Source: Punctularia strigosozonata HHB-11173 SS5
Lineage: Eukaryota; Basidiomycota; Agaricomycetes; Corticiales; Punctulariaceae
Direction: 5' to 3'
Assembly: GCF_000264995.1 (NCBI RefSeq)
Contig: NW_006767439.1
Coordinates: 1-64,000, forward strand
DNA length: 64,000 nucleotides
The notes under the pieces were generated by a model. That model was given only the letters and a program-made list of their open reading frames with translations. It was not told the DNA's origin and ran no database searches. Each line of letters starts with the position of its first letter. The stretch's first letter is position 1. The position numbers were made by a program, and so were the translations under genes. Positions 31,400-56,725 of the stretch are shown one piece after another.

Positions 31400-31645
31400 G
31401 ATCTGATCCTGATGAGCGAACTGACTGTCGGAGGACACGCGAACTCTTCATATCGCTGTTACCGATCGGTAGGAGATGCAGAACGTGTTGTCGAGATGAG
31501 TTTCAGCGCGAGACCATAACTTGATCTGATCCTGATGAGCGAACTGACTGTCGGAGGACACGCGAACTCTTCATATCGCTGTTACCGATCGGTAGGAGAT
31601 GCAGAACGTGTTGTCGAGATGAGTTTCAGCGCGAGACCATAACTT
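31400..31645. repeat. perfect tandem duplication, 2 x 123 bp
   Basis: The unit starting GATCTGATCCTGATGAGCG occupies 31400-31522 and is repeated directly from 31523 to about 31645, ending CATAACTTG in both copies. I see no difference between the copies. It is either very recent or an assembly artefact. Confidence 0.9.
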
Positions 31646-32442
31646 GGATCGCGAGTCGATGGAGTACACAGCTGCCAGCCCATCGCCGCCGGCCGGTCCC
31701 GTCCGAAGTTGACAAAGTTGGGACAAAGAGAGCAAGTAGCGATGACACAGCCACGGATTGCGCCGCCATCATTGTCCCGGGCTCTGCAACGGCGGGTCTT
31801 CCTCGCAATTGTACAACAACAGCCTGCTGGCGGTACGGACAGCACCTCACGGATATAAGACCGGGCAGGATATGTCGGTTCGCTCTCAACCAACACGGTG
31901 CCCCACTCTCCCAACGGCTGTCGTCATTACGCGGTTCTCGCGCTGTTCCGGTACGCCTCGTTGCAAGAAGGTCCCGCGTTTCTCTCCAACAACTCGCAAC
32001 CGAAATACTAGACCTGCGCACGCATCACCTGAGTTGTCTGCGCATTCAGTCCCGGTCTTGGGCCCCGTAGGACCTCGACCCGACCCCTCCCCCCACAAAG
32101 AGCGCATATAAACCGGCAAGAGATTTCTCGTCTCGGCACCTTCGCCCACCCCGTGTCAATCACCTCGAGGCTTTGATCCACGTAAAGCCCCTCGGACTCT
32201 CGGACGTCAACCAGTAAAAGCGTAATCCGCTTGCACATTTTGCATAATCCACTGGGTAGGCCGCAACACGCCCCGGGACGGTCCTCCGAGCTTCATGTCG
32301 TTGACGGTTCTCCCCTTCCTTCCGTAGGACTACAAAACCCCCAGCTGCTTCTCCGCCTCCTGCCTATTCTCTCGCATTCCCCACATCGCCAATCCCGGAC
32401 GCCCCGCACTGTTCCTCCCGCTCCCTGTGACGGATCCGCGAT
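31646..32442. other. promoter region of the first MTEYDYSP gene
   Basis: No exon supported. It contains a TATA box at 32107-32112 and then a C/T-rich leader of about 300 nt before the ATG at 32443. Confidence 0.4.
32107..32112 (+). promoter_or_regulatory. TATA box of MTEYDYSP gene 1
   Basis: TATAAA in GCATATAAACCGG, 336 bp upstream of the start codon. The downstream leader is pyrimidine-rich, as in many strongly expressed fungal genes. Confidence 0.5.
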
Positions 32443-33280
32443 ATGACCGAATACGACTACTCCCCCGACGCCTACGAGAAGTACCTCGCCAGGCAGCAGC
32501 GCATCGCCGACTGGGTCGACTCCACCAACTCCCAAGCGCACCGATACAAGAACCCCTTCGTGCACGCGCCGTCGTCCATCGCGCCGTCTACCTCGTCGGA
32601 TTCGTCGCATTTTTCCCGCCGCCCCTCCTCGCGGCACGACCGAGACCTGCGGAGGTCCAAGACGCTGAGCCCGACCCGCTCCGCAACGCGGGCGCTCTCG
32701 CCGTCCAGCCCCCGTTCTTCCCATTCGCACGCCTCCCCTACATCGTCACATCAATCCCATGCGGGCTACGTATACAGTCCCCCGGCGACATACACGTATC
32801 CGGCGGCAAGCCATGCCACCGCCCAACACGTGGTCTACTCTCCGCAGGCGCAGTTCGCGTACTCGTCGTCGCCGCCTGGACAATACTACACGACCTTCCA
32901 ACCGTCGAGCTCTCATGCACCCCCCGGCTCCACGTCCTACTCGTCCACCAACCCGAATGTGCGATATGTTACCTACGATGCCTCCGCGCGGCGCGTGGAG
33001 ATCCCGGCACCCCGACCAGGACAAACCTATATCGTGTATCCTCCCCCCGGCGGTCGCGTTGAAGTCATGGTGAGTCTGCTTCCTCGTCATTTCGTAACAC
33101 GCGCTTACGTTTCGTCTTGTTTTCCTTCTCTAGTCGAGCTCTTCGCGGACGTCCTCGTCGCCAACCTCTCCCATCTCGCCCACTTCCTCGTCAAGGTTGA
33201 CAAAGAAGAAGGATCAACCCATCATCGGTTTCTTCAAGAACCGTATATCGCGCGACCCATCCAAGGGTCGTCGCACGTAA
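32443..33280 (+). CDS. MTEYDYSP-family protein, paralogue 1 (unknown function)
   Basis: Two exons with a 64 nt phase-0 intron (33070-33133); 257 residues. The N-terminus reads MTEYDYSPDAYEKYLARQQR and continues IADWVDSTNSQAHRYKNPF, a charged, probably helical block. The middle is low complexity, rich in Ser, Pro, Tyr and His. Before the intron comes a conserved-looking segment, RRVEIPAPRPGQTYIVYPPP. The second exon is Ser/Thr-Pro-rich and ends in a basic tail, TKKKDQPIIGFFKNRISRDP then SKGRRT. No signal peptide, membrane segment or known domain. Two relatives in this window (42,032-43,064 and 52,989-53,991) share the same plan. Function unknown; it is probably a mostly disordered intracellular protein. 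Confidence 0.82.
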
Positions 33281-34985
33281 TCGCCGTGATGAGCGCCCAC
33301 GTTCGCACATCGCCGACAGCGTCGACGGTGTCGATCATTTTTTGATGGGCAGGCAGGACACGACCTTTGTCATTCCTTTCACTTGCTCCAGGTTGCTCCG
33401 TGTCTGGCCTTCGCCGCCTTTCGGAGAGCAGATGGATATCCCGTCACGAATACCTTGCATATAATGAAGATACCTCCCGGGTACCGAAAAGAGCAGCTTC
33501 TGTGTATAATAAGGAACACGGTTTGTAGATGATGTAGAACATAAGGAATTGTACTTTTAGTTAGAACGTTACGATAGGATCATAATGAATCTCACGAACG
33601 GAACGCCGGTTTGCCCAACACGAACACATTCTGATCATCGATTTCCGTACGTGTATCGCCCAATGCCGCCCAATCAGTGCCTCCTCTAGGTGTACGACAA
33701 ATTTGATCCGCTGCCGAACATAAGCAAGTTTCATCTTTCTGCGCCGTGTGACAAACTGCAAGAGAGTTTAATGGTTTCAGCTTGCGAATTTGCAGTGCTA
33801 CTACGGACTCGGTTGCGGCACGCTGTATTGAGTACTTACGCCATGTTCTTGAGACTGGACATGCCAAACTTGTACTAACACAATGTAGTACCGGTACCTT
33901 GCTCTGAGTCCCGAAAGCGATACCGTAAACTTGCCTTATCCCTTTCAGTTGCCTAAGCCACCTCGCGGGGTTGCGGGTGCACCGGCATGACGATGTTCAC
34001 AGTTACCAAGTTCCCGTGCACATGCGTCCCATTCCGGGTTCCTTACTTATGCCGTCGTCGTCGTCGAAATCACGGTGAATGGAGGGATCGCGCACAGACC
34101 GCAGCTAGGACTGGTGTACTCGCCTCTACCGTATCATTCAGACGATCACGGACGTCACTGGCGTTCTCACTGCCGGCAGCTCCCATACGCACCTCATATA
34201 ACTTTTCCTGGCCGCCATGGCAGGCATCGATGTTGCCGACCGAGGCCAAGTATAGCGTCGGTCAAGTTGCGCTCACCACGTCGCCAAGCGCTAGCTTCGA
34301 CCTTCGAAGGACCGCGGTCTACCGGTGCGCCAACGGTACACGCAAAATTTCGGCGTTGCTTGCAAGCTGCAGCCCGGGTCGCAGCGAAGGGCCGGACCGT
34401 CAGTGCATGAGATGCATCGGTGATGGGCGTCGCCACGGTGGTTTCCCCTGGAGGCTGTGTTCCGACTCCGGGCAACCGCTCTCGGCGGTGCCTCGGCGAC
34501 GGTGCGGGGGCCTGTGCACGCCGACTCGAGGAGATCTCCTCCACTTCCTCTCCCAGCCCAATTGGATCTGCGTGGACGTCCTGCTCGTTAGGCTTTGATC
34601 GGTAGGTGCGCTCACTCACATAGCCCGCGCCTTGACATGTTCCCGTCGCGACGCCGGGGTCTTCGATCGCTGATCTGGAATTCACCGAAAGGCTCGGAAA
34701 TCATCGATACTGGGTGCAATCAACCGTTAGGCGCCCGCGGGATGTATAAGACATAACGCTGGCAGATACCCAAAGCAAAAAGGCTCAGATTATTCTCTGC
34801 CCCTTCGTCGGCTCCACCTTTACTTGTTTTCTGCTCCTCGCAAAGCCGGGACCTCGCACAGCAAAGTGCGGGCCTGTGCGCTCTCTCTACTCGTTGCACA
34901 CAGCCTCAGGAGGCGCAAACGCATCCCTTTTGAGACACCAGCGTCGGGGGCGGGATAGAAATTCCTGGCGATCAGCCCATCCGCG
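33281..34985. other. intergenic stretch
   Basis: 3' region of MTEYDYSP gene 1, then unassigned DNA with overlapping open frames on both strands (34,000-34,690). The last 240 bp are the promoter and leader of the DUF6699 gene (TATA-like TGTATAAGAC near 34,743). Confidence 0.4.
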
Positions 34986-36075
34986 ATGTCTGGCCCATTC
35001 GTGTACAATCCCCCCGCGTACGTTCCAAGCCCGTACCTAGTGCCGTACTTCAACCAGGCCCCGCCGTCGCCTTTCATCCCGCCCCAGTTCGCGCCGGCAC
35101 CACCGTCTACCGGGAGTTCGCGTCGCGTGCGCTTCGAGGATGACGACGACGTCCCGCCCCTGACGTCCCGGCCGCGATCATGGCACGCGCCCCCGATGCA
35201 GGTTCCTTCCTTCGCGACGCCTCCTCAGACCTTTGTGCCCCTGCCCCAGGCCGGGTATCTTCACCCCCAGGCCGCGTTCGCACCGGGGCATCACAGGAGC
35301 CGGTCGTTCGGGGGATCCACGGCCACACCACCCATGTTCACTCAGCCATGGTACCTCTGCACACCCACCATGCAGCCGGTGATGCAGCCTATTTCACCCA
35401 TGCCGGTATCCCCCATGCTGCTGCCGGCCGCAACACCCCCGCCTCCTCCTATGCAGATTCACCCGTACCTGAATGGCGCATCACCCCGCCCGGACTTTGT
35501 CTTCGACCTCAGCGCGAGCACCTTTCGTCCCATGAAGATCCGCCACGACGGCGAAGCGGTTCCCCTCGCGGTAGCGGACTTTGACCAACCCGCAACCCAT
35601 CCGCCGGTTTACCGCATGCGCATCACCTGCGACGCCATACCGCAATGGCCGATCGACCTCGAATACTCGCGTTCTCCGAGATCCGTGCTTCTAGAGATCC
35701 CGAGCCCGAGTGGCGGTTCTATGGTTCCTATCACCCTGCGTGATGTGCTTCTCGCTGTCTATCAGCATCTGCAAACTCAAATCACCCATCTCGAGTATGT
35801 TCCGTCCTTTATCGATATGAGGACACGTGTTGATAACTTCTCTACGCAGTTGGGCACGCTTGTCGTACTCGGAGGAGGTAGCCATATCTCGCGCCTACAC
35901 TCGCCGATGCCGTGCGGCATCTAATCGGGCTGTAATGGCTGAGCAGGCGGAAGCGAGCCAAGGAGTTAAGAGGATCGACTATTTATTGGACCGTTACATG
36001 TTCAAGGGTTTGGTTCGCGCGGGAGCGGCACACGAAGGATTCGAAAACGTGAAGCTGATGGTGGGACCGCGCTGA
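34986..36075 (+). CDS. DUF6699-domain protein
   Basis: Two exons around a 55 nt intron (35795-35849); 344 residues. The N-terminal half is Pro/Tyr-rich and disordered (MSGPFVYNPPAYVPSPYLVP). An acidic-basic patch, RRVRFEDDDDVPPL, lies near residue 45. The C-terminal domain runs from FVFDLSASTFRPMKIRHDG through HPPVYRMRITCDAIPQWPID to ITLRDVLLAVYQHLQTQITH; splicing then gives LDWARLSYSEEVAISRAYTR and the very typical VKRIDYLLDRYMFKGLVRAG and a final ENVKLMVGPR. This order is that of DUF6699, a basidiomycete domain without known function. It lies 1.7 kb downstream of MTEYDYSP gene 1 on the same strand, with its own promoter. Confidence 0.82.
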
Positions 36076-36240
36076 CGATCTTGGACGACGACTATGTGCA
36101 TGACAAAATCTATATATATCACTTCCATTGCTCTCCTTCGTACGTATGATCTAGATTGGAAAGGACAGTACATTACCATCGCTACGACTATGTTTATATG
36201 TACAATATGTAGGACGATGTCGATGTGAACTGGATGACGT

Positions 36241-38084
36241 TCAACAGTAGTACTGGCAAAAATCTGCCTTTGCTTGGTCGATCCCTTGTTTGACGCCGTG
36301 CTCTGAGAGAACATCATCAACTGACGGCCAGATTTCATAAGATGTTTTGACCCACCCAACTCCCAAGCACTCTTTTCGCCGCCTTTCTCGTTCACATGCG
36401 CAGAGAGGCGCAGTTTCACCCAAGCGCCCTTGAGCCCGATCTCAGGAACCGGTATGCCCGGAGACACTGAGGTGAAGAATCTGTACGCGTCGTCCCACCC
36501 AGTGACAAAACCTTCTCCGAAACGCCAGTGTTCATAATGGCCCGGATATTGAGACCACCAATTAGAATGGTCCGCTATCATGGTCTGATGAGCATAGGAG
36601 CCAAGGCGGCTAAGTTTTCGTCAGCGTACCCAACGACTTATCCCGCGCGGCGTCCCGCCTTTCCTGGATTTCGTTCGGGTCGTCGACGGTACGAGAAGCT
36701 CGTAGACCTATCCAGGGAGGAAACACGCCTTGCTCCACCGCCGTCCGCCAGCTCCATCCCGTATCGCCCCCATGTTCCTTCTTGTACGTCCAGAAGAACC
36801 ATCCTGAGCATAGGCGCTCGAAGAGATCGAGCTCTGCTTTGACGTAATCCCTTTTCGCCGCCGACTCGTTGGACCCGAGCCCTTCGAGCGACTTCGGATT
36901 CAGCGCTCCTGACCATTCTCCGACGATCAGGCCACCGCCGGCGCTTTCGAGTTTCTCCACGGCCGTAGCGAACTGTTTCGGCGTCCCCGCGTTGGTATCC
37001 GACAAGTTCTGTATGTGTTGCGAGACGGGCGTTGCCGCATCCCCAGATGTGAAACAGCGGTAAAGATGATGGTCGATCACGAGTAGAGGCGTCTTCGCGC
37101 TTGCGACGTAGTTGACATAGTTCTCCGTCCACCAGCAATCGCTGAGGACGATGGGAATCGTGCTATCGATCGAGCGTAGCGCTCGGGTAGCGTCGGTGTA
37201 CCAGTTTTCCAGAGCCTTGTGGTTGCCGTTCGGCTGCGGCTCGTTGAGGAGCTCGATGCCCACCACATTAGGTAACGGGGGAGACCTGGAATTGCAGAAG
37301 GCCTTGACTTGAGAGAGTAGGACCTCAAGAACGTGCACGGCGTGATGCATGTGCTTTTTATTGGAGAAGAACTTTGGATTGTTCGAGGTACCGGCATGCG
37401 AATCGTGGTTCTGTTTACCGGGAGCGGCGTGGAGATCTAGCAAGGGAATTAGTGGGGAAGGTTGCGCGAATGTGCAACAGAATACCTAAGAGTACGCCAA
37501 TACCATGTCGGTAAGCGCTCTCGATTGCAGCAGTGATACGAGGCCATGCTCCCTCAAATACGTGCTGGAAGTCCGCGAAGTCGGTCCCAGGTAGCACAGA
37601 AGGGTCCGCTCCGCAGAGGTGATAATAACCAATCTGCCCATGCGATCAATGAAGACGAGAATGAACGACGAGAAGCTACGTACGGGGATTCGGACGGTAT
37701 TGATGCCCTTACTTGCGACATAAGCCCAGTCCACATCTGTGATCCAGGTGTCCCAGTGGTGCTCGAGGATAGCCCTTGCATTCTCGCCACGGGCGACGTC
37801 GAGGTCGCTTGAGCCTGGAGAAGCCGCTGACCGGAAGGGGCTGTCTGCTATCCACTTCTCGAGAACAAACCATGAACCTGATACAGATTACGCCATCAGG
37901 TGAGAGACTTGAGTTGCGATTCATGTTCACAATACTGACCGAGGTTAACACCGCGCTGCTTGCGGTATCGGTATATATCCTGTTCTTGGGGAAACGCATC
38001 ATTTGCTAGATGAACTTGCGCGGAGACATCTCCTTGAGACTGAGATCTGACATGTCCTTTGATGAATTTCGATATCTTCTGCAT
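36241..38084 (-). CDS. GH5 family glucanase (exo-beta-1,3-glucanase-like)
   Basis: A glycoside hydrolase of family 5 resembling fungal exo-1,3-beta-glucanases, which trim beta-glucan. The start at 38084 gives MQKISKFIKGHVRSQSQGDV, without a signal peptide. Then come RGVNLGSWFVLEKWI (spliced), ITDVDWAYVASKGINTVRIP, LLDLHAAPGKQNHDS, VVGIELLNEPQPNG (catalytic acid Glu in NEP), VIDHHLYRCF and LIVGEWSGALNP (nucleophile Glu in GEWS). The 3' exons read SQYPGHYEHWRFGEGFVTGW and GLKGAWVKLRLSAH. A 53 nt intron restores WELEHGVKQGIDQAKADF before the stop at 36241. Both catalytic glutamates are present. Lack of a signal peptide suggests an intracellular form, or an upstream exon that I did not find. Confidence 0.88.
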
Positions 38085-38503
38085 GGCGAACGAGATGGTC
38101 AACGAGGAGTCCTGAACACAACCTGCCCGGCGTACCGTCGCAGTACATATAGCACGTAGCCATGATGACGTTGAGTGTAAGCCAAGGTGGGACCGGTTGG
38201 GGTTAGGGTCACTGCGAATTCGGACTTGGGCGCTTTGCATTCTACCGCATTGCCGCTGCATTGCCGCGATGATCACAGCTCTGTCCTGGCGGTCACTACG
38301 ACTGCCTTCGTCGAACAACGTCGGCTCCTTGGGACCGAATACAGGTAGCGTGAGCACCATATCATACCCGCCAAGTTTCACCCTAGATGCTCGGCAGGTT
38401 GTGCAACGTTGACTGAACCGGTAGCGTTTCCCTCAGCGAGAAATCGTTCGTACTGGATCTGCGCTGGTAACTGATCCTGGGCGTGTCATCTCTCCTACTC
38501 ACA
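38085..38503. other. divergent promoter region, GH5 (-) and MYND (+)
   Basis: About 420 bp between two divergent start codons. The minus frame continues open upstream of the GH5 start but has no signal-peptide character. No clear TATA box on either side. Confidence 0.4.
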
Positions 38504-40527
38504 ATGTCTGGACGAGTTCGCGCTCATGGAGAAGGCCTCCTTCAGATCAATCGCCGGGAATACGAGGTGGATGCCGCTCATGAATAGTCGATAGGCGCAC
38601 TGAACGAACGATACGCAGAGACTATCAAAAGCTGCTCGACCGCCATACGCGACGATCACCGACTTGCGACGATTTGTAACATTCGTTGACCTTCATCCGG
38701 AGTTCCGATCCGATGCTACTCCAATTTTCTGTCTTCACCTAGACTCTAAATCGGTGCCTTCTGTCGGCCCTGATGGGCGTACCGACAATACGTCGCGTCT
38801 GCAACCTGCATTTGCTCTAACAGCGCTCATGGGACTCTCTGGAATTGCTGTCGTCGATGAAGCTGAAGCCAGGATCCTACTTCCTCACATCGCAGACATC
38901 TCTGCCTGGATCGTCTTCATCATCAGGCAATGCATACTCCCCAAGGAAGCACACAGACGCCCGTCCGTCAAGCGCTCCCTCCGCCCCATTTCCGACGTCT
39001 TCAGGCCACTTTGCGCCATCGGTGCGGAGATGGACCTCCTAGGTTTAAACCTCGTTCGGCCTGTCGCGGATCTGTGGATCTTGGCTGCGCAAAGATCCAA
39101 AATCAATGCCGTGTGCCGCCAGGGCTGGGAATACAGTGCTATCAATGCCTTCTGGGCATCTGCCATAGCTAGCCACGATCCACCTCTTAGATCGTTCCTA
39201 TCCGCTCTCGTCGACTCTGATGTCCCGTCCTTTGTTTCGTCCGCGCTCTGCCATCTTTCGCGGACGATCAACAACATGGACGGAAAACTCACTTCGCACT
39301 ACGACTTGACGAATGACATGGATGTTGTTTACTTTTTGTCCCTATACGGAGAGCCCACGCTGTCTGATATAGTCCAGTCTCTCTTGGAGAAGGGTGCAAT
39401 GACGCTCATGTCTAAAGGAGCTGGCTTGTTGGCCAAGGCGGTTCACTCTCCGATCCATGCACACCATGTTCTGGCGGGCATCACAAAATCCGCCGGTTTC
39501 TTCACTATAATGTCGTGCGTGGCGCCGGGTCGCCCATGGGTGATCCAAGCCGTCAAGAACGGCATCATCCAAGCCTTGGTACAGGCGGCATATCTAATCC
39601 AGTTCGTGAAAATAGAGACGGCCGTTGAGGATTATGTCCGCGGCGTCCAAGAGGCGCTGCATCGTCTGTGCGCGTACTTGGTGTACAGGTCGGTGCTGCG
39701 GGTGGTATTGAAAGCGGTGGAGACGATAGACGAGAGCCGCTTATTTAGGTCGGATCCCAGGATGAATGCCGTCTGGGACTTGTGGGAGACGTTTATGGTG
39801 CTGGTGATGGAACGCGACATCCTTTACACCGCAGCGAAACCGCGCGTCGTCGTCGTCTGCAAATCGGTTCGTTCTCTCCACTATGGCAAGCGAGAGGTCC
39901 ACGCTGAATACGCCGTGCCAGTGCGGACTGAAGGACTCTGGAGACACGTTCATGCGATGCTCTGGATGCGTCCATACCTGGTACTGCTCGTCGGCATGCC
40001 AGGAGAATGATTGGAAAGCCGATCACCGGGAGTTTTGTACCGACTTCAAGCTGAGATCTCGACGTGAGCCCGAAGCCCGGTTCTCCTACTTGCTTTCGCT
40101 CATCGCACGCCCGACTTTTTTTCCAGTGGGCGACTTGCACACGCTGAGCTTTCGAGACTACGAGATGGTCAAGGCCGTGACGCGGTACGACCTGTCCCGA
40201 CGAAACGACGAGATCAAGGCGCAGCTGCGCCTGCCCGACCGCTTCTTCCCGCCCGTGATCGAGCTCAGCTACATGATGCACCCGGTCCAGCTCAAGGTGA
40301 TGACCGTCGCGGAGCACGCCGCGTACCGCGCGATCGACCCGGACAACCCGTCGTACGACGCCGCGCTGGAGAAGGTAAGGAAGGGCAAGGGCCTGTTTGC
40401 GCTCGCGCGCACGCTGCTGCCGCTCGGAAACCGGTGGTTCGACGCGAACTTTTGGGCGCAGATTGTGGTGAGGGAGGCGGAGACGCCGGAGGAAGAGGAG
40501 ATTTTGCGCGAGGTGTTGTCGTGGTGA
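38504..40527 (+). CDS. MYND zinc-finger protein
   Basis: About 640 residues in three exons. The first exon (38504-38566) gives MSGRVRAHGEGLLQINRREY. Intron 38567-38618 joins it to RLSKAARPPYATITDLRRFV. A long helical, leucine-rich region follows, without known domain, as in many Agaricomycete MYND proteins. A second intron of about 49 nt (near 39846-39894; several GT donors in a GTC run fit) restores the frame into STLNTPCQCGLKDSGDTFMR and CSGCVHTWYCSSACQENDWK, the Cys/His zinc-binding MYND finger (ending HREFC). After it comes a domain with PTFFPVGDLHTLSFRDYEM and a C-terminus ending EILREVLSW at 40527. MYND fingers mediate protein-protein contacts; no SET domain is present. Confidence 0.8.
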
Positions 40528-42031
40528 TCTCAGTCTGTTTGCCGTCGATCGGTTGGGTTGTCGTCCGCGGCGATGCATTTGTTGTTGTACGTTACATGCA
40601 CTTAGATAGGCGTCCCTGTCGTGTCCGAGGATCAATTATCTGGTGATGAGACTTCTCTTCCTCGATCAAAGGCGTAACGATCGTTGGCATTGCATCTCGT
40701 CTCGTCTATTACTCTATGAAGAGTGGGGTATATTCTACTTTCTACAGAGCCGACCGCGCTCGCCCTCGGCCGCAGGCCAAAGGGTTCGTCAGGCTTAGCC
40801 GACTCGCGGGGCAAGTATGGCGAAGTCGGGAAAAGGGTGAAGAGGAAATGTACACGGAAGCTGTTGCTACATATGAAAACAATGGGTGGTCGTGGGGTGT
40901 CTCTTTGCATGAACCGAGTCATAAGATAACGGATCCGTGAAGGGTCAAAAGGTCCGAGGCGATGTACAAATAACGATTAAGGGAGGGGAGGCTCTATATG
41001 CCGCCGTGTTTTGGATGGACGTGGTGGAGGAGACGTGGAGATGACCTCATGAACGGGTAGAGGGCACATGGTGTCTATGAGATGGGTTGGATGCATGCAA
41101 ACCAGGTAAGAGGGCCATGCACGTTCGAGTGAAGGAGAGGGAGCTCATGACGCGGGTGGAGTGCATGTCGTCTTGACCGAAAGCTCAGGATGCGAGAGCC
41201 GTCCGAGCGTTGACGAGAGCACGTCAGGCGTCATGATGACGAGTTGGCGTCCTGAGATACCCGCGGGAAAGCGCCGGGATGACCGCGGGCAAATCCGTGC
41301 GGCATCGCATGGCTGCCCGGATCAGGGCAGAGGGCAACGATCCACGAGAGGCGGGACAAATCTTGACGAAACTGATCCAGCACGTCCATCGTGAAGACGA
41401 GGAGAGGAGTAAAACCGCGTGGCCCGACACGGGTTTTTTGCCGACGCACGATCGCAATGACGACAGCCTCGCGCTTGTCGTCGGCTGTTCGTCGGTATGC
41501 TAGCGCCGGAGTAGGCAAGCGTTGCGTCGCAAGATGCCGGAGAGATCTCGAGGAAGCTTCGGTAGCAGTCTGGCGTGCGGCTTGCAGCAGGCCAACCCGC
41601 GCCCATACGGAAGCCTCTCGGGCTTGCGCAATACGGATATCGCTGAGGATATCGCTGAGGGTGGTGCCAAGTGCGGGTACCGATGCGATGTTTCTCGAGC
41701 TCGTTCCCCGATCCCTCCCGATCCACGCAGGATCAAGGTCTTTTCTTCCCCGTGTGGGCTAGTAGCCTGGACGATACGGATTCCGCTGAGGATATAGGTG
41801 TTGTTGCGGTGGTGCCGGATACGGTTGCGGCTGGCGATGCAGCGTCGTCCCCGTCGCCCTTCCTCGATCGTTGGCGATCCACGCGCCCGCCGAAGCTCCT
41901 CTCCTCCCCGTGTTCGGGTTCGAAATCACGTTCGAAGCCGCTGGTGTCGGCACCTTCCGCGTCGCCTTCCGCCCACGTTCCTGATCCTTCCTACCCTCTC
42001 CCGCGCCGCCTGCCGCGGCAGCCTGCACATC
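40528..42031. other. intergenic stretch
   Basis: 3' regions of two convergent genes and about 1 kb of GC-rich DNA with open frames on both strands (41,160-42,030). Short tandem motifs of the type CGCTGAGGATATCGCTGAGG occur at 41,640-41,660, with a similar one near 41,785. No exon with domain support. Confidence 0.35.
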
Positions 42032-43064
42032 CTAGTAGCTCCTCCTCCGCGCGGGCCTCCAGAAACCACCGCTGGAGGTGCCGTTGGTCTCGACGCGGGT
42101 CTGCTCGCGCCCGCGACGGTCCCAGCCGCCGATATGGTTCGTGAGCAGCCGTTTCAGCAGCGGCTGCGACTTTTTGCTCTTGGCGGGCGATATGGGCGCG
42201 GGCGATTGAGACGAGCGCGAGGACGAGCGGGTGCGAGACGAGTGGGTCTGTCCAAAAAAAAAACCCATTCGACGAACGTGTTAGCTACGCGAGGGCGAAA
42301 GAGAAGCGAGCGGGAGAGGGACGCACGGCGAGCTCGGCGCGGTGGCCGCGGGGCGGGATGACGACGTACTGCTGGCCCGGCGCGGGCGCGGGGAGGCGGA
42401 CCTCGCGCCCCGAGCGCGGATCGTAGGTCTGGTACTGCACCGCGGGCACGCTCGCCCCGCGCGCGTGGCCGTGTTGGTGGGCGTACGCGGCCGTCGGCGG
42501 GTACGGGTACGTCGTCGTCGCGGAGGTCTGGGCGCGCCGGGAGGTGGACGAGGTGTGCTTGGGCGGCTGGCCGGCGTAGACGACCGGGACCGGGGCGGGC
42601 GCATGGTGGTGCGGCTTGGGATACGGGCCGTACATGGTCTGTTGCTGGGGGACGGTGGTGTAGGCGGCGGCGTAGGTCGGCCCTGGCGGCGGTTTGACCG
42701 GCGTCGGGGCGTAGATATGCTGCTGCTGTTGCGGATATTGATGCGGCGTGGTCATGGACCGCGTCGGGCCGGGCCTCGAAGTGGACGGGCCGCGGGAGGG
42801 GCTGACGGTCTTGCTCCGGGTGCTCGTCCGGTAGGGGACCTGAGCGGGCGCGTTGGATATCCGGCGCTCGCGCGTCGTGGGGCGGTACTCCCTCGGTGCG
42901 GGCGTTGGAGGACCCGAAGAGGAGGAGGAAGAGGAGGAGGAGCGGACGAAGGGGTTGGCATACTGGCGGGCGTGGGCGTTGGTGTTGTTGACCCAGTTGG
43001 CGATGCGGGCCTGGGTGGCCATGTACTTTTCGTACGCCTCCGGGGAGTAGTCGTACTCGGTCAT
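42032..43064 (-). CDS. MTEYDYSP-family protein, paralogue 2 (unknown function)
   Basis: Two exons with a 79 nt phase-0 intron (42248-42326); 317 residues. The N-terminus is MTEYDYSPEAYEKYMATQAR followed by IANWVNNTNAHARQYANPF, nearly the same as paralogue 1. A Ser run, then a Pro/Tyr/His-rich linker with Arg-Ser patches. The segment before the intron, GREVRLPAPAPGQQYVVIPP, matches RRVEIPAPRPGQTYIVYPPP of paralogue 1. The second exon is SSRTRSSSRSSQSPAPISPA, then KSKKSQPLLKRLLTNHIGGW and a basic end, RPARRRSY. The intron has a run of ten T just before its acceptor. Very GC-rich, so antisense frames are open too; these are shadows. A TATA box precedes it at 43,294. Confidence 0.83.
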
Positions 43065-44349
43065 GGTGGGCGAGAGGAGGAGGGATGGAGAGAGGCAGGG
43101 CCGGCGAGGGAAGGCGTGCTGGGTAGCTTATGTACCTCCCTGCGAAAGGTGAGGGAGGATAAAGAGATGGTGAGGAGTGGTGCCGGTGCACAGCGTAACG
43201 GCTACTGACCGGGTTTGGGAGATGGAGATGAGACCTGGCGGTGGCGGCGGGGCGTGGCTGTCCGGGTGGCCCGCGGGTGCTGGGACGCGGGTCTTATATA
43301 TCTGTATCTCGCTGGCCGAAGAAGGGATGGGATCGACCCTTGAAGTTGTGCTGCGCGGGACGGCACGAAGCTTAATCTCGCAGGAGAAGCGGCGGAGGTG
43401 GGCTTAGCGAGCGTGCGGAAGGGTGAGTAGGTAAGCGGCGGACGGCTGGGATGCAGAGAGGGATGATCCGGGTGAGCGACGAGGTTGATAACGATCGAGG
43501 GATGGGGCGCGCGGCCGACTCACGGTGGATTGGGGGGACGTGCGTGCGCTGCGTGATTCGCTGGAGCGGTTGGCTGGCTCGCTTGGCTGGCTGGAAGTGC
43601 TCGCGGGCCTTCCTGCGAGTTAAATACGAACCGTTGCGGCAACTTGAACGGGAGGACGAGCCCAGACCGCGACTATTGTGTGCTGGTCCTGCTGGCCACC
43701 TTCGCATGTGAGCAGATCTGATCAGGGGGGACGCGGGACACGCGTGGACGACGCACCGGAGAGGCGTGTTTTCTGTCGGGCGATGACGAACCGCTGGTGC
43801 GTCTGAGACTGGCTCGTCTGTGTTTTTCTGGTTTATAGCAGCTGGTACAGCCCGTGTACCACCGCTCGTGTCGCTCGTAGAGGAGAAACACTCCACCCGG
43901 GCGGAAACAGAACAAGGGCCACCGACAAGGTTTGGGTTTGGGGGTTGGCTCTCGGAGGCAAACTGGCGGTGGCGGTGCTCCTCCTATTCTCTCTTTCCCT
44001 TTTCGGGACGCACCGGCCGAAGTACCTGCTCGACTGTCCTGGACGGGGAGGCGACGACGACGAAGGGGCGACGGCTGTTCGACGCGGGGAAACACGATGC
44101 TACCAGACTCTCAGCTGCCCGCTATATATTTCTGCGTGCTCGCTGTGCCAACCGCGCCGCCATCTGTTACGGTGATATTCCTGGCGTAACTGGACAGTGC
44201 CTCCTTTCCTGCTCTTGTTCCCCCATTCGGCCGGCGGCTCCTGCTCCCGAACGACCTTGCCTGCCGCCCCACGGCCTTCAGCGTCCCAGAGCTAGGCCGC
44301 AGTCCCCCCGTGAGGGTCAGCTGTGCAGCATCCGACCGCGTTCGTTGGA
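43065..44349. other. divergent promoter region
   Basis: Holds the promoter of MTEYDYSP gene 2 on the minus strand (TATATAAGAC, 43291-43300) and a TATATAT on the plus strand at 44123-44129 that would serve the decayed gene downstream. No exon seen. Confidence 0.4.
43294..43300 (-). promoter_or_regulatory. TATA box of MTEYDYSP gene 2
   Basis: TATATAA on the minus strand, 230 bp upstream of the start codon; it is followed by a leader of about 200 nt. Confidence 0.5.
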
Positions 44350-47300
44350 ATGGACGTCATGACGCCGTCTACGAAAAGCTCTCGAAACACGCGCCCAACA
44401 AAGCAACGCCACATCTCCAGCCGTGGAGCGACCTGCGCGTTTTCTCCGTTCATCCTTGCGCACCCGTGAGTCAATCCGCATCTTGTCACCATCCTTACGA
44501 ACGCCGTCTGACCCCTTCGAAGACGGCCGTGAGCAAACGCACAAGAATAACCTACCCTCCCTGCAGAGCTGAAACGCTCGTTCGCAATCGATACCAGAAT
44601 AGACGAGAGCGGAGCGCCATACATACTACGGCTAATCAGCCTCGTCTTCTGCAACGCCGGGCTTACAGCCCGGTCTGACCGTATCGCTCGAATCCTCGTT
44701 CGGACCCGATCCGCGTTATGGTCGCGGGAGCATCGTCGGCGCCTTCCAACTCAAACTTCTACGCATCATAGGAGGTGGTCCCATGATATCCCAACCCGTC
44801 AGCGGACTTTACGATTAGGAACCCGTCCTTTCCGTTCAGTACGTCACGCCATCGACACCTCTGCATTTCACCTGACCTAACCTTCCCTTCGTTCCTCCAG
44901 ATACGCACGTTGTGTAACCTGACGTGTCGGCTGCGAGCGCCACGAAGCCACGAAGGTCCAGCGACCTTGCTGATGATGTCTCCCCGATCGTCATCCACTC
45001 GGATATGAATTCGTCCGCAGCCACCTCGGCTTGCTGATCGAGCGCCGTACGACCTCTCGACCGGACCCTCTTGTCCTCTCAGTCAGATCCACAGCGGCGG
45101 TATGTCTCATCTTTCCGCGGCCCGCAGCCCTATCCGACTCTGGTTGCTGACGGTCCTGTTGCAATAGACCCCCGGATCTCCCCTTCCTCCCTTCAAAGCC
45201 TGCGCAAGGAGGATCGTCCAAGCAATCCGTCGCTCTCACGCGACAAGGCGCATCACACGACCCCGATGTCATCGTCATCCCAGCGCCAGAACATCGTTCG
45301 ATCGCCCTCGCCTGGACCCGAGAACTCCCACTGGCCCCCATCATCTGTACGTCCTTTGCTTTCTCCCCAACACATCTACGTTCGCTCAATTCATTGGCCA
45401 GCGTTCTGCCCCAGCACCGGCAACCCAACGCGCGACTCGTACACGCGACCAGCACGTTCACCCTCTCCCCCATGACCCCTCCCGAGCGCCACGAAGTCTC
45501 CAGCGATACCAAGTCTGGACGGATTGTTCAATGAGGATCGCACACCGGCTGGCTGGACCTACAGCGGGCGCGGGACGTGGCGTTCTTCTCGTTTTCTCGA
45601 CAGAGCAGTCTCCTCTGACGTCCGCTCAGATCACGTCCCCACACCGGTATCACAAGACCTCATCTCGCCCTTGCCCATCCAGAGGCCTCAGCGCCGCCTT
45701 TTCCCGGTTCCCCCCGTCTGGCGGGTATCGCGAGTCGATGCATTCCGTACATGAATCGCATATTGCATCATCGCCTGCTTGCCGCCCGTCGGTCCGATGA
45801 CCCAGGAACGCCGTGTCAGAAGGACAGGATGAGAGGAGAACGACCGCTTTGCCCTCGGTATTCCCACGCGACACGTGAACCAGCGGCTCCGCAACCCGCT
45901 ACTGAACAGAGCCAACCTCCAACGTTCATATATTGAAACCCTTGCGCGACAGCCGCCTCTCCCTCTCCGCTCTTAACACCTCGGAGCGCCGCCCACTCAC
46001 ATACCCTTTGCCCCTCTCTGCCCAGTCCAGAACGCAACCTCTGGCCGGTTTCTGATCGAGCTCAGCAACCGCGCGTTCAGCACGTTTCTACGTACCTCTT
46101 CTTCCCACACTCCTCTCGTACTCGTACCCCACGAGAAGCTACCCGCGGAGTGCGGAGAGCGGGGGACTGTTGCGGGGGTTGAGCGGAGCTCCCTTCGCGA
46201 AGGTTGCGGGTCAACGGGCCGTCCCGTGCTCGTCGGACGAAAGACGTTTCCAGACCAAGATATGAAACCTGGGTGAAGCCGTCTTACATGAAGCTGCGGT
46301 CTCGTATGTATTCCGCATCACAAGACCTCCACCGTCATCCAGCGCCCAGATACGTGCGTCGGCTCTGTCGCCCTAACCTGAACCCGGAGCCGGAGCACTC
46401 TCCCAGGCCCATCGCTGGTCCCGTGGCCTATCGACGCCCAACGGGTCCCAGAGCCGACCTCGCGAAACGATATCCTTCCCTCCGTTCAAGCCGCCCGGTC
46501 TTCGTCGATCAAGACACGTCCTTTTGACGCGTCCTTGGACCTCAACGTGCATGCCCGACCATCGAATACAGATTACAATAGGTCCCTTGCACGGCCAGGT
46601 TGAAATCAGAGGCTGCACCCACCCGGCGAGAGTCACGCCTCGTGAAGTCTCAAGTCAGACGCACCTCATACCTCGCGGCCCGCAAGTCTCACCGCGAGCG
46701 GTCCGATGAAACTCGATCTTGGACTGGCAGCTCTCGCCCTGTATTACCACCTCGTCGTTAGGAATAGTCTGCACTCCTCTGAAGACGCTGGTCGGTGGCC
46801 CAGCGAACATCGCCACTCGCACATCATCGTCGTTCGAGGATCTGCTATTCACCAGCAATGTCGAACTCTTGGCCCATGGAACCGCGCCAACTCGACCGAA
46901 AACCAGAGGAGACCCTTCTATGAATCGCCCCTGGGACTCTCCGTTGATGTTTCCCCGTGAACACCTCGGACTGTCCGCCCGCCAGCTGCAACCATTTACG
47001 GCCCGATGGATCATCCTTGCCTGCACGCCACTTTCCAATCGGCTTTTCCTGCCGCAACTTACGGCCTGCACGCGTTGCATCCCGTCTCGCCGCTCTCTCC
47101 CGGGCATTACCCAACGAGAAGTCATCAAGTGCGGGAACTGCGTACGCACCGGGACGTCCTTCACAAGTTTCGCGGATGACGCTCGTTCCGTGTCCGTCGA
47201 CCCTTCGGATACGTGGTCCTGGATGGTCGAGGACGCAGGGTTTGGCCCTCGACGCCTTGTCGCATCAACAGGAGGCTGTTGTGACTTGCTCTCTAACTCC

Positions 47301-47372
47301 GGACGAGGCGCAGTTTAAATCCTACGGCCTGCTTATTCCGGCTATGGGATTGGAAAGGCTGTCGTTCATATG
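44350..47372 (+). pseudogene. decayed gene, possibly a homeobox transcription factor
   Basis: A plus-strand region with exon-like sequence in shifting frames. A TATATAT at 44,123 and an ATG at 44350 give MDVMTPSTKSSRNTRPTKQR. A good GTGAGT donor (44466) and CTGCAG acceptor (near 44,564) follow. After splicing the text reads LVRNRYQNRRERSAI, close to helix 3 of a homeodomain (usual form WFQNRR), but a stop comes soon after. The next 2.7 kb is Ser/Pro/Arg-rich in all three frames (for example RSPSPGPENSHWPPSS) with repeated interruptions, like the disordered tail of a transcription factor gone out of frame. No complete reading exists. The homeobox assignment is an inference from about 15 residues plus context. 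Alternatives are a heavily spliced live gene or simply stop-poor GC-rich DNA. Confidence 0.35.
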
Positions 47373-48452
47373 AACGGTAGCTCAACTTTTAGAGCGGGAC
47401 CGGCAATGGCTCCTTGCTTATGTTATTCCACCGCGACGCATGGGGCCACTGATGGAATGCATCGGCGAGGATTGTGTCCTTTCACGCATTATTGCTCCTG
47501 CGGTCTAGCGCGCCTTTCGTGGGTTTCTGGGGGCCTTCCCGCGCGCAATAGCTTCAACGTGCCATTTTTGGCAGCAGGCCGTATCCAACTCTATTCTCAA
47601 CGATAAGAACGCGTACCCAGCAATAAGGACGCATACTCTGAGGAACACACATTCGCAAGCTCATGTGTATCAAAGTAGGCTGTTCACGTGGACAGTATAG
47701 ACGAGGCGCTGACGATGATGGCACACTCCCCACCAGGGTACGACATATATGTCCTTGCATTGCCCGTTACCTCGCTGCGATGTAGTCGTACGAGCGTCGT
47801 CAGCAATCCCAACCTTTTTGCCCGTGCTCTGATAACATTGAGGATGGCGCGATTGTATGCATCGAGCAACGTGCAATGCATCTCCGCGGTTACTCCGGCT
47901 TTTTGGTACCTCATATCCCTGCCTCGTTCTCCCAACCTCACAAACGTCCTCCAATCCATGTGGTGTATGTGCGAGAATTCTGTTCAAGCCACCGCCATAG
48001 CAAACAGCCTCCTCCTCATTTGCATTCCGGGGTACGATACGAAGTTACGCACTACGACGTGTACGCTTGTCCTCCACGAACGTGCAGCGAAGTGACTACT
48101 GGGATGAAAACACCCTTCGGCGAACATTTGTCCTTAGCCTCTCCTGGCCGTGGTAACAGATTGCGGATCGTGCAGTTGGCGTCGTCGACAATAGGTCAGG
48201 ACGACTTGCCTTGCGGAGACCCTCGCAGACTGCCGTGTTGACCGTGAATCGTTGTCGCACATCTATCATTGCAAATTCAACCTGTCGAGTGAGAACGCGA
48301 TTGAACACCGATTCGATGAGGCTGCAAAGTGAGAGAGCGCCTACTATACATCGTGCGTGTATCGGTACATGGATGTAGCCCCAAAGCTGAGCCGTACATA
48401 ACCCCTCAAGCAAAAAAACAAATCGGACAAGATCGGTGGTGGTGTGGTGGAC
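47373..48452. other. intergenic stretch
   Basis: Plus-strand open frames continue (for example VYVREFCSSHRHSKQPPPHL near 47,960-48,020) and may be the tail of the decayed gene. The 3' end of the next minus-strand gene follows. No model can be supported. Confidence 0.35.
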
Positions 48453-49865
48453 TCATGGTACCACCACTATGTGCTCAATGCCATAGAAACGCCTCATAGC
48501 GCGACGCATGTCCTCCGACTCCAGTTCCACGACGGCTTCATGCGATCCCCTGACTCGCCCTGGAATCCGTCGAGCGCGGTATGAGCTGGCCGATATCTCC
48601 CGACCAGATCTCGTCCAAAGGAGTTCGATACGTTCGATCGGCCTTATCAAGTCGGCAACGAAGGTGCAGAACGCAGAATGCTCCTGTACCGCTCCTATGG
48701 ATATGACAGGATGGTGACAGTCGAATTCGAGGCAGAAGTACTTGATTGGTAATCCAGATATGCATGGCTAGCAGACGCTGTAAGTAAATGGATCTTGAGC
48801 GAGAGAATATAGACGTACCAGAACCGTCCGCAAGATGGCCATATCCGTGTCCACCAAAAGCGTCAGATGCAGGACCTCCAGCCTTGGCGCACAAATTGCG
48901 ACGCGCAGCCAAAACTCGGACTCCTCCGATAGGATGGGCATCGACAAATTCATGGGCCCAGATGCCGCCAGACCGGAGAAGAAACTCTCACGAAGGCGAT
49001 CCTGCTGAGCGTGATACAACGCGGTCGATCCAAAACTGGTCACCTCCAAGCGCCTGACATTCGAGTATAACGGGTAATGATACATGCTGAGGAGATCCAC
49101 GGTGGCGGCGTCAAGATGTGGCCATGCAAGACGCACGTCGCATGTGTTCTGTGCATGTAGGTCTTCAACGACTGCCATGTCCTCCAGGTGCAACTGGCGT
49201 AAATTCGGGAATGCGACGTAGAGCAAGGCGCGCTTCACTCGAGGAGCGAACAGAGCAAGGTGGGTCAACTGGGTCCAGCGAGCTTGGAGAGGAATACTCG
49301 TTGCCGCGAAGTCCGAAAGTTTCAGGCGCCTCAGGGTCGATCGCCACGGAAGGATCATCTCGAAGTTTGGGGCAGGGGCCATCCGTCTCCCAATGATGAG
49401 AGAGGAAAGAGGCGACGTCAAAGACCGTAGCATCGCGTCCGCTAGTTTACCTGCGCCTTCTCCCAGAACCAGGCGGACCATGCTTGTGCGAGATGCAATG
49501 GCCGCCCGTATTCGGGGATCATTGAACATCATCCGCTCGGAGTCCCACAAAAGGACTTCCTCCAGCCCCGTTGCTTGCGTCAGGAGGTCCGCGAGCAGGC
49601 CGACATCCATTGGAAACTTGAGCGCGCTGCCCGAGAGATCGAGAGTCCGCAGAAAACGAGGGATGTGCTTGGCTGCGCGCGAAAGGGCAAAGTGACAGAA
49701 GCTGGAGAGCTGAAGAGGCGTACGAAGAATCACAGATGACGCGAGGATGGGCAAACCCAGGTCATACGCGGTATGGTTGGTGACCATAAACTGACGCAGG
49801 GTTGGTTTGTCGAATTCCGCTATGATTTGCACCAGGACGTCATAATTCAAGTCAAGTAGGCCCAT
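48453..49865 (-). CDS. F-box-like / leucine-rich repeat protein
   Basis: The start at 49865 gives MGLLDLNYDVLVQIIAEFDK followed by TLRQFMVTNHTAYDLGLPIL, an F-box-like opening. A long leucine-rich region follows (FLRTLDLSGSALKFPMDVG, LRRLKLSDFAATSIPLQA, FPNLRQLHLEDMAVVEDLH, RRLEVTSFGSTALYH). One intron of about 51 nt after MAILRTVL joins the second exon, which reads IKYFCLEFDCHHPVISIGAV and later LIRPIERIELLWTRSGREI, and ends RFYGIEHIVVVP at 48453. About 450 residues. Likely a substrate adaptor of an SCF-type ubiquitin ligase or a degenerate relative; the target is unknown. The acceptor choice rests on frame and could be a few bases off. Confidence 0.7.
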
Positions 49866-51720
49866 CCTCCGTGATCTCCTCCGGGTATTTCCTGTAATAA
49901 CGTGTAAGCTCTCAGGATCTGCTGATACGCATGGCCGCGAGAGACTGACTAAGGATCATCCGCTGCATTTTATAGGATAATGATGCGCTTGAGGAGGCCC
50001 ATTTACTAGAGACAGTCGCCTAATTGTCCTCTTGCTCAAAGGAGAGTTCGAGCCTCGCTAAGAATCGGAAATTGGTCGTGCAACTGCTCTGAAATATATG
50101 CCTCGCTAGCCCCGACCGTTTTCCTCCTAAGCAAGATACTGTTAACCATGAAGGCTCGAATGATTATGGATGTTGAGGAATGATACCTTTCCGGCTGTGC
50201 TAAGGCAACCCCAAATACGGGATGCGGCCTGCGAACGTCGTGCGATGATCCCTCCAGTATTTTTCTCCCTTCCTTCAAGGAATTCGCCTGAATTCATCGT
50301 AGGGTTGTCAGCAAAGGGTCCGCGAGCATCAGCCACGCGTTGGCGAGAGACAATGCGCACGGTATCAATATATCGAGCTATGACTGGCTCGGCAGGCTAT
50401 GAATGTCCTTTGATCGACGCGCTAGCCAAGAAGGGTTGTCCTGTGCTGACGTTCGATCCTTGCTTGATCAATGGCGGCGCCAATTCCGTCGAAAGCGACC
50501 CACTTCTTGGTGGGGTCGTGCTTATATGGCATCGATATAAGAGGTGATGACCACCATGATAAGAGACCCGCTGGGAGTTTTGTCGAACGGCGCTTTCTCG
50601 GTGACGGGGGAAGATCATGCCGTCGCTCGCACAGAGGTGGCTGAACGAGGTTGATCGGTATTGAGAAGAGATTCCTCCGAGACTCGATATGGGCGAAGCT
50701 TAATGACAAAACGGGTCAACAGTAAATGTCCATCCGAAACAGCCGCATTCGTGGTGCAGAAGCATAGATAATGGGGCCAGCAGGCGTTCCCCTGAATCAT
50801 AGGATGGGCATTTGGTTGTTGCATAACTAATGCGTGTGTAAGGCCGAAGTAAGTCGTCCACCGTCCGAATTCGGATCGACTTTGGTGTGAGTAATACCAT
50901 GTGACCTGTGACCACGACGCGTGCGCGTCGCGTCTTAGTCGACACCGCGAACCTACTGCTGCCTCCTCCGTGGTCAGTAGTCTGTGCTGGGTCAGCTATT
51001 CTCAGATTCTGGAGTATGTCTCCCACTCGATATGCACATTCTGCCCTTCGCTTGGTAATACACCATGACCTAGGTGCGGCAATTATGATCTACATCTTCT
51101 GAGTACGCACAGTTTCACTACCGGTCGCATCATGCGCCCGTACGGCTGCCTTGGCCCGATAACGTGTCGTATCTCTTACTACCGTCGCCCAGAACCTAGC
51201 ACAAAGTCGCCGTTGCATTCTCAACACGTCACGCTACACACATCATCTTACGCTGCTCCCTGACTTCTCCGACCTTTCCCCGAGAACATGGTTGGCCGCC
51301 TCTCTAAGATGTGGTATGAGTTGCTTAGCGTGCTCAAGAATGTAATCACCGTTGGTTACAACCCCAATTCCTCTTCGGAGGATTATTCGAGGATTATCCG
51401 CGTTACTGACAGTATAATGCCTATCTCGCTTTATAGCTCTGCCTAGCATTGATCTCTTCATATACGTTCATTTTGTTTTTAGTATCGCCCGATGTGAGAT
51501 AACTGTGTCCTGGTGCCTACTTGATCGGATGCTAATACAACGTTTGATGCGGCTTACGGGGTGAACTATAATAAATTAGTGTGGGCGAAAGCAACCGTAT
51601 CAATTTTTTGTAGGTTGCCTAATTCAAAAATATCTGTGATGTCGGAATATGCAGGTGGCTGTATCCCTCCAGTGCGACCGAGCACGACGCACACCGACAC
51701 ACCTCCACCTGGACTCTGTA
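49866..51720. other. long intergenic stretch
   Basis: No exon with support. Overlapping open frames at 50,170-50,550 and 50,420-50,710 on opposite strands. The last 150 bp are the promoter of the uS7m gene. Confidence 0.4.
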
Positions 51721-52383
51721 ATGCTCGCGGCTCTTCGCCCAGCTGCGTCAAAAGCAGCTCTGGCGGCTGCATGTCGTCGAGCCGTCTCTACCCTCCCAAC
51801 CTCTCCCGATGCTCCCGTTAATCTCGGAGCCTACATCGAATCCCTGCCGCCCAAGAGCGAAGAACGACCTGCCTTCACTCGCGCAACACGGGAGAAACAC
51901 GAATGGCTCAACATACCTCCCGCAGAGGACCCTTTACTGCACTTCCTTACGAACCTGATTATGAAGCACGGAGAACGCGCGAAAGCGGCTCGCGCCACGA
52001 GCAGCATATTGCTATGGATCCATACCTTCACCCGCGCTCCGCCGCTGCCCATTCTGCGGCAGGCCGTGCTCAACGCCTCGCCCGCAGTGCGCGTCAAGTC
52101 AATCAAAGTGGGAGGAAAGACGGTGCACACGCCCGTAGCGTTGAGCGAGAGGCAGAGGACACACTATGGATTGAAGTGGATGCTGAAGGGTAGCGACCAT
52201 AGACCGGGGATGTACGTGGGCGAGAGGTTTGCAAGGGAAGTCATTGCGGTGCTTCAAGGCGACAGCACGGCTCTAGCGAAGAAGCTTGAAATACACAAGA
52301 CTGCAATGACCAACAGGTACGTCGGCTGGTCTTACTGCTCGTCGTACTGGCGCTGATGATCATTCAGAGGAAAGAAAACTTGA
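51721..52383 (+). CDS. RSM7: mitochondrial ribosomal protein uS7m
   Basis: Small-subunit ribosomal protein S7 of the mitochondrial ribosome, which organises the head of the small subunit. The start at 51721 gives MLAALRPAASKAALAAACRR, an Arg/Ala-rich mitochondrial presequence. The S7 core follows: DPLLHFLTNLIMKHGERAKA (helix 1), PPLPILRQAVLNASPAVRVK with SIKVGGKTVHTPVALSERQR (the beta-arm) and AREVIAVLQGDSTALAKKLE with IHKTAMTNR (C-terminal helix). The 51 nt intron 52317-52367 separates a last exon of only 16 nt, which adds GKKT and the stop. Total 203 residues, normal for the family. Confidence 0.92.
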
Positions 52384-52988
52384 GCTTCTTCTCCCGCCAC
52401 CGTATCAACCCTGCTGTCAAGTACATTATGTTAATGCTTTTAATCGACGGCGTTCCATCGATCAACTTGTCCCGTCTTCGGCTCAGAAACTATCTATGAA
52501 ATTGTGGGATGATCAATGATACGTCCACTAGGTCAAGTCGGGTTGAGGGCGTGAACTCGCATGTTCTTCAACGTTTTCAACCACTGGCATACATTTGCCA
52601 CCATGGCTGTCGCCCGCCACTCCAGTGGTGTCAGGCACTAAGTCGGCCTATTGCTTAGACACTCTGGAATCGCCTTGGAGGATGCAGGTAGGGCCCGCGT
52701 TGACCTACAAATTGATGTGTACCAAGTATTTCACTGATCACACGAGTGTCCTTACCGTATTACATTCCAGGTCAATTTCTGACGTTTTCATATTCATAAA
52801 CATGACGTTCATAATAGGGATAAAGTACCACATCAGGGAAGGAGAGAAGGTGAGCGGAAGGGAGAAAGAAGGGATGCAACAACAGAATGCCATCTAGTCC
52901 AAAGCAAGGCTGATATCTGTAAGTTCGCCCATGTATTCGCCATCTCCGCCAACTGCCCTTTAGCTCCGATCGAGTACACAACGATTCA
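52384..52988. other. intergenic stretch between convergent genes
   Basis: 3' regions of uS7m (+) and MTEYDYSP gene 3 (-). No exon seen. Confidence 0.4.
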
Positions 52989-53991
52989 TTACAGCGAAGA
53001 CATCTTATCCCTGATCTTATCGACGAAAGACCGTTTCTTCTTCAGGGCTCTCTTGTCGGCAGGAGACAGGGGGGAAAGATTTGCCGAAGATGCATGGGAA
53101 GGGGCTGGGGACTGTACCGGAGACGGAGCCAGCGAGTGCGGGGAAGGATGGCGAAGATGTGTAGGCGGCGTGTTCGGATGGTTCAAATACTGTGGGACAA
53201 AGGAAGTGAGCAAAACGAAGCCAGCGAGAGGAAATTTGAGAACTCACGAAGACTGTCGTCCCATCGGGAACTGTCAGAACTCCCGGCGTGTTGAGCACGA
53301 CCACCGAATTGGCGGGAGCAACGACGCTCCTGACCTCGTTTATGGGGGTGCCATGAACCACGGGCGGGGCAACGCGACTCGGGGATACATTTGCTGAGCG
53401 GCACGGTGGCGGGGAACCCGGTAGCGAGGTACCGACGAACGGCGCTGGGTCAGCGTGATGCTGAGGGGACGCCGCAAGTAATCGAGGCGTTGATTTAGAG
53501 TTCCGTAATGTCTTCCGTGGTGTAGCCAGCGCCATGTCGATTTGCGGAACAGGGAATGGTGGTGGATTGCTGTCCGTTTGTTTGTCATATCGAGGTTTCC
53601 TCTTCGGAGGTGACGAAGCCGGCGACGCGATACTGGAAACAGGTGACTGCGCGTACTCTGGGTAGAAACCACCGATTAAGGGAGGAGTCTGAACGCGGGC
53701 CGTGGCGGAATCCTCAAGTCCGAAACTTCCATGGGCTACACGAGGCGACCTGTGTGATAGACCGGAGGTTAGGCCGTGGACATCAACCAGGTCGTCCGCC
53801 GCTCGATGAGACGCCTGCGATGTAGAGAAGCAGGACGGAACAGCCGTGGGAGGAGGGACGATGTGTTCTGGCGGATATCTGGCCTTGGACGCCGAGATGT
53901 CAGGCCGAATGCCTTCGGCCCACCGCTTGATGTCGGCGTTCTTTTCCTTCTGCCTCTTGTAAGCTTCGGGAGAATAGTCGTACTCGGTCAT
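52989..53991 (-). CDS. MTEYDYSP-family protein, paralogue 3 (divergent)
   Basis: Two exons with a 58 nt phase-0 intron (53190-53247); 314 residues. It begins MTEYDYSPEAYKRQKEKNAD then IKRWAEGIRPDISASKARYP, so the first 11 residues match paralogue 2 exactly and the rest of the block is related in plan. A Pro/Ser-rich linker of about 180 residues follows. Before the intron comes a hydrophobic segment, ANSVVVLNTPGVLTVPDGTT, at the place of the GQxYxVxPP segment of the other two. The second exon is Pro/Ser-rich and ends in a basic, amphipathic tail, ADKRALKKKRSFVDKIRDKM then SSL. The frame upstream of the start is open but has no conservation. Function unknown. Confidence 0.8.
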
Positions 53992-56537: not shown

Positions 56538-56725
56538 TGAATAACTAGCATGCCCTTATCTGGTCTGACGCGATAACAAGTAGGCTTTGGTACTGCATAG
56601 CCGTATTGATATGCAACAACCTCACAATACACCTGCGATTGAGTCCATAAGGATAGATATGAATAAGACAAATATTTATCACAAGACGGGTATCAGAAGT
56701 AGCCGATGGGTATCATCCTACCGCC

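Follow-up and report, generated by a model that had tools for sequence, protein, structure and literature searches.

Among conserved fungal proteins that fall outside the usual annotations, a useful point of comparison is Snowball/SNB1, a seven-TM protein whose published description records both DUF6533 and disordered regions. The same source describes DUF6533 as basidiomycete-specific (PMC10949477). The locus considered here lies in a window of 64,000 nucleotides, the whole stretch of DNA that was analysed, at positions 1 to 64,000 of contig NW_006767439.1 of the basidiomycete Punctularia strigosozonata HHB-11173 SS5. It contains three genes, here called A, B, and C, whose products all begin with MTEYDYSP[DE]AY at the initiator methionine (3/3), as the original prediction had it. 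A search by the tip sequence and close variants returned no description of an MTEYDYSP family in the papers covered, and nothing was found there for DUF6699 or for the EH domain and NPF motif in basidiomycetes. The suggestion that no named domain accounts for these proteins also holds in the libraries searched, namely Pfam (exon 1 only), NCBIfam, and PDB. In Pfam-A, exon 1 of A matched only Sororin_middle, at 10.3 bits against a cut-off of 23, and exon 1 of B and C gave no match. NCBIfam returned one match (E 0.051) at 12.9 bits against a cut-off of 500, and the best result of the PDB profile search (E = 0.11) was a nine-residue match to a fucoxanthin chlorophyll-binding protein that is not meaningful; the tip of A alone had no PDB match at E <= 1. 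The MTEYDYSP family is real, ordinary in kind, and unnamed in these libraries.

The gene models, A at 32443-33280 (+), B at 42032-43064 (-), and C at 52989-53991 (-), are all ATG-started and bear out the positions first proposed (Table 1). Each gene has a single phase-0 GT..AG intron placed late in the gene, again as expected, with splicing predicted in all three, and each intron contains one CTNAY branch-like site at 30 (A), 37 (B), or 21 (C) nt before its end. After removal of the predicted intron the proteins are 257, 317, and 314 aa long for A, B, and C. They are rich in serine (21.0, 12.0, and 13.1%) and proline (11.7, 14.2, and 15.6%), in agreement with the Pro/Ser richness noted earlier, and exon 2 starts Ser/Pro-rich in all three genes. 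Using a codon table trained on four other window ORFs with Pfam matches, the annotated frame had the best score in 6/6 exons, with a near tie between frames in exon 2 of A (0.085 annotated vs 0.073). A longer gene B, extended through the 90 in-frame open codons past its stop (41759-42031, -), was rejected, as the in-frame codon score there is -0.011 and the best-scoring frame lies on the other strand. This open stretch has a Pro/Gln/Tyr-rich end.

Table 1. Positions in the window of the features of genes A, B, and C
Feature	Position	Strand	Basis
Gene A exon 1, residues 1-209	32443..33069	+	
Gene A conserved tip, residues 1-45	32443..32577	+	alignment, shuffles
Gene A NPF, residues 37-39	32551..32559	+	
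Gene A RSKTLSPTR, residues 71-79, suggestive motif common to B	32653..32679	+	
Gene A pre-intron block common to B	32953..33069	+	0/2000 shuffles
Gene A predicted intron, phase 0, 64 nt	33070..33133	+	
Gene A exon 2, basic tail including stop	33134..33280	+	
Gene B exon 1, residues 1-246	42327..43064	-	
Gene B conserved tip, residues 1-45	42930..43064	-	alignment, shuffles
Gene B pre-intron block common to A	42327..42446	-	0/2000 shuffles
Gene B predicted intron, phase 0, 79 nt	42248..42326	-	
Gene B exon 2, basic tail including stop	42032..42247	-	
Gene C exon 1, residues 1-248	53248..53991	-	
Gene C conserved tip, residues 1-26	53914..53991	-	shuffles, genome query
Gene C predicted intron, phase 0, 58 nt	53190..53247	-	
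Gene C exon 2, basic tail including stop	52989..53189	-	

Relatedness was assessed segment by segment (tip, linker, pre-intron region, and exon 2) by comparing pairwise local alignment scores with those of 2000 shuffles. For residues 1-45, 0/2000 shuffles reach the A-B, A-C, or B-C score, and the convincing match of C to A and B is limited to residues 1-26. Over the 45-residue tip alignment, identity to A is 67% for B and 35% for C, with M1 to P8, A10, Y11, I21, W24, A32, and P38 invariant. Past codon 11 C drifts fast, and at residues 12-25 the pairs share 10/14 (A-B), 2/14 (A-C), and 3/14 (B-C) identical residues. The linker carries no signal, as 285 (A-B), 984 (A-C), and 620 (B-C) of the 2000 shuffles reach the score. 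A block of the GQxYxVxPP type, or an equivalent, had been proposed ahead of the intron in all three genes; over the last 45 residues before the intron it is common to A and B (0/2000), but no equivalent in C can be demonstrated (911 shuffles for A-C and 1194 for B-C). The proposed tail in exon 2 is likewise shared by A and B (2/2000) and, weakly, by A and C (4/2000), but B-C is not above shuffles (235/2000). A further candidate common to A and B, RSKT[LV]SP[TS]R, is only suggestive, with 56/2000 shuffles reaching the A-B score. Taken together, A and B are paralogues whose homology covers residues 1-45, exon 2, and the block ahead of the intron and leaves the linker free, which upholds the paralogy originally proposed. 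The links of C to this pair are residues 1-26, the overall layout of the gene and, more weakly, the resemblance of its tail to that of A. At the DNA level, likeness among the copies is confined to the 5' coding end (68 nt at 71% for B-C; 134 nt, inverted, at 75% for A-B), which fits an old duplication.

It is somewhat unlikely that C is not a full-length paralogue and acquired only the tip, by partial duplication, which would make the family a pair plus one tip-bearing protein. Beyond residue 26, C is at chance level in the linker and the pre-intron segment, and so is the B-C comparison in exon 2, as such a history would lead one to expect. However, C has the same layout as the pair, with a late phase-0 intron, a Ser/Pro-rich start to exon 2, and a basic tail, and the rarity of shuffles matching A-C in exon 2 also speaks against it. 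The DNA match between B and C stops 5 nt before the ATG, and there is thus no sign of a recent partial copy.

The strongest constraint had been placed on the N-terminal tip, and the codons bear this out, since differences in codons 1-11 are nearly all synonymous. The pairs A-B, A-C, and B-C differ at 4, 5, and 5 of these codons, of which 3, 4, and all 5, respectively, are synonymous. A parsimony count by hand over the three sequences gives 8 changes, 7 of them synonymous. With 20% expected for random single changes, the probability of at least 6/8 being synonymous is 0.0012, a generous figure considering the small sample and that the family was noticed through this very stretch. That nearly all differences are synonymous argues that the tip has been kept as protein.

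A DNA pattern encoding YD[YF]SP-x-AY, with 2 mismatches at most allowed, occurs 8 times in the wider genome, searched over 33.57 Mb in 32 contigs. The 3 exact matches are A, B, and C, and as the only three in the genome they all lie within 22 kb, in accord with the local grouping first described. The 5 inexact matches have no tip behind a start codon, and because a reversed control pattern also gave 4 genome matches, they are regarded as background. The match at C5:1936576 (YDFSPVAY, one mismatch) was rejected as a member, being inside a frame and not at a start, and L021, L023, L024, L029, and L030, read in one frame, have no start tip. At E <= 10 the only matches to the first 28 residues of C are C itself, B (E 0.0025), and A (E 0.028). 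As genome queries, exon 1 of A matched A and B and not C; exon 1 of B matched B, A, and two weak stretches (E 0.44 and 0.71), again not C; and exon 1 of C matched only itself. Since the exon-1 queries fail to link C with A and B, a member as diverged as C can escape them, as could any copy whose tip has altered. Queries with exon 2 do not connect the tails of A, B, and C to each other in the genome. Candidate relatives of the tails elsewhere were set aside as weak, comprising beyond the queries themselves one match for A (0.49), three for C (0.95, 1.04, and 4.74), and three for B (0.03 with an internal stop, 0.125, and 0.71). A pattern search also matched 17 stretches in a viral collection and 15 in a bacterial and archaeal collection, none confirmed as a relative, an unsurprising absence if the family is fungal and one that is uninformative as regards fungi.

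Two related genes of the DUF6533 type bracket the cluster, at about 26600-28280 (-) and 55000-56540 (+), and both are oriented away from the family gene next to them (A and C, respectively). The two are 51-66% identical in 5 aligned pieces; the 27-kb gene scores above the DUF6533 cut-off, and the 55-kb gene just below it (21.5 vs 24.1 bits). The pair was rejected as proof of a duplicated unit because DUF6533 has at least 38 genome matches, and a copy on contig C9 slightly outscores the second copy of the window (63.8 vs 60.4 bits). Between A and B lie a DUF6699 gene of unknown function at 34986-35924 (+; 55.3 bits) and a GH5 stretch like fungal exo-1,3-beta-glucanases at 36610-37485 (-). Elsewhere in the window are an HMG-box protein at 7524-9485 (+), a ribosomal S7-type protein at 51649-52356 (+), a nearly perfect tandem duplication of a 123-bp unit at 31400-31646 (99-100% identical), and, near the left end at 388-1710, several mutually similar open frames that suggest a short repetitive stretch. 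A TATA[AT]A motif occurs within 400 nt upstream of 3/3 family starts and in 283/2544 random 400-nt stretches of the window. A shared TATA box was rejected as evidence of co-regulation, since 2/5 other window gene starts checked have one too.

Structure prediction with AlphaFold, run on exon 1 of A only and with a three-row alignment, gave a best model of mean pLDDT 53.8 and pTM 0.20, with the other four models at 42-48. Of the 209 residues, 111 fall at pLDDT < 50. There is one confident element, a predicted helix at residues 8-34, in which the two blocks of residues 11-30 average 93 and 89 and residues 31-40 average 63, and the sequence S7-P8-[DE]9 is a typical helix start. Short strands are predicted between residues 166 and 208, with block means of 50-66. 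The tip helix is not notably amphipathic, as 367 (A), 214 (B), and 572 (C) of 2000 shuffles reach its moment.

Our preferred reading, held tentatively, is that a single fungal gene, duplicated locally and long ago, gave rise to A, B, and C, which encode disordered proteins with a short N-terminal docking tip. Each copy would be a mostly disordered, positively charged protein, with the disorder of B and C presumed. The tip, MTEYDYSP[DE]AY followed by a helix with the conserved I21 and W24, would have been kept as a docking element, in which the extended acidic and tyrosine-containing peptide and the helix starting at S7-P8 may bind a single partner shared by all copies. The basic tail and the Ser/Pro linker, which may be open to proline-directed phosphorylation, vary between copies and could give each copy a different reach, regulation, or second contact, which for the tail could be membrane, nucleic acid, or importin. 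This reading is favored because the tip is beyond chance in all three pairs and kept as protein, because the predicted helix of A sits in a chain mostly of low pLDDT, because the linkers resemble each other no better than shuffled sequences do, as a free tether would, and because the genome has just three occurrences of the start pattern, all inside 22 kb. Against it, the helix comes from a three-row alignment and from A only and is not notably amphipathic, C keeps few helix residues (at 12-25, 2/14 with A and 3/14 with B), and exon 1 of A or B does not retrieve C, while exon 1 of C retrieves neither. What has been shown of this reading is the homology of the tip, the constraint on it, and a predicted helix in A, and binding, phosphorylation, and the role of the tail are inferred. 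The docking peptide envisaged at the outset fits the helix predicted at residues 8-34 of A, a fit that lends plausibility and is not a test.

Other roles can be drawn from the tails and from short motifs. The basic tail that had been claimed is present in all three proteins, with exon-2 net charges of +9 (A), +13 (B), and +7 (C) and runs of KK or KKK. Its supposed amphipathic character was not borne out, for the hydrophobic pieces that had been picked are ordinary (1184, 531, and 353 of 2000 self-shuffles reach the moment for A, B, and C), with some tail windows among the eight highest helical moments of their own protein in all three. It is possible but unlikely that these are nuclear regulators, in which the Lys/Arg-rich tail serves as a nuclear localisation signal, the Ser/Pro middle as a regulated region, and the tip as a cofactor contact. 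The net charge of the tails (+7 to +13) and their KK/KKK runs would suit this role, as would the [ST]-P-x-[KR] sites found in all three (1 in A, 3 in B, and 3 in C). However, basic runs and S-P sites are expected from such composition, the sites of C are not aligned with those of A and B, and exon 1 has no DNA-binding or other domain in Pfam.

A role as endocytic or membrane-traffic adaptors, with the NPF at residues 37-39 binding EH-domain proteins and the basic tail contacting membrane, is quite improbable: A and B do carry the motif at matching positions amid different neighbouring residues, and the genome has EH-domain (PF12763) exon matches, 5 on contig C8 in two places, but EH proteins are general in fungi, so such exons say little for the idea, and A and B have a single NPF each, which sits in a block common to them anyway, while C has none (2/3 members carry it). 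The NPF would suggest EH-domain contact for A and B only.

Returning to old duplicates with a docking tip, the three genes are best read as a small, probably basidiomycete-restricted family of disordered adaptor-like proteins. The original prediction stands as regards paralogy, local grouping, and tip constraint, but not as a system, since no evidence was obtained for a partner, for co-expression, or for shared regulation. A bolder proposal, which we consider doubtful, is that MTEYDYSP[DE]AY-x9-I-x2-W at the start of a protein is a docking motif, so far undescribed, that extends across a whole basidiomycete clade, and that several clustered, fast-evolving disordered proteins use it to vie for a single conserved partner or to come together on it. 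Should docking by the tip prove real, the tip would give short, testable access to a set of fungal proteins overlooked by domain libraries because almost their whole length seems disordered. For now, the family adds one to the apparently lineage-restricted families that lack a function; it deserves a name but is no surprise.

In comparison with known systems, the family is similar in kind to unannotated basidiomycete families such as Snowball/SNB1, which in its published description is likewise a conserved fungal protein of an unannotated kind, with disordered regions and an unknown biochemical function (PMC10949477). Snowball/SNB1, however, is a seven-TM protein with DUF6533, whereas DUF6533 was not matched at E <= 1 by exon 1 of any of the three genes, and the likeness is of kind only, with no homology. 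With EH-domain ligands, A and B share one NPF each, and C differs in having none. The PDB searches gave no match to a solved docking peptide. The tip helix predicted in A and the long linkers that differ between the copies resemble the class of N-terminal helical docking motifs carried on a disordered tether.
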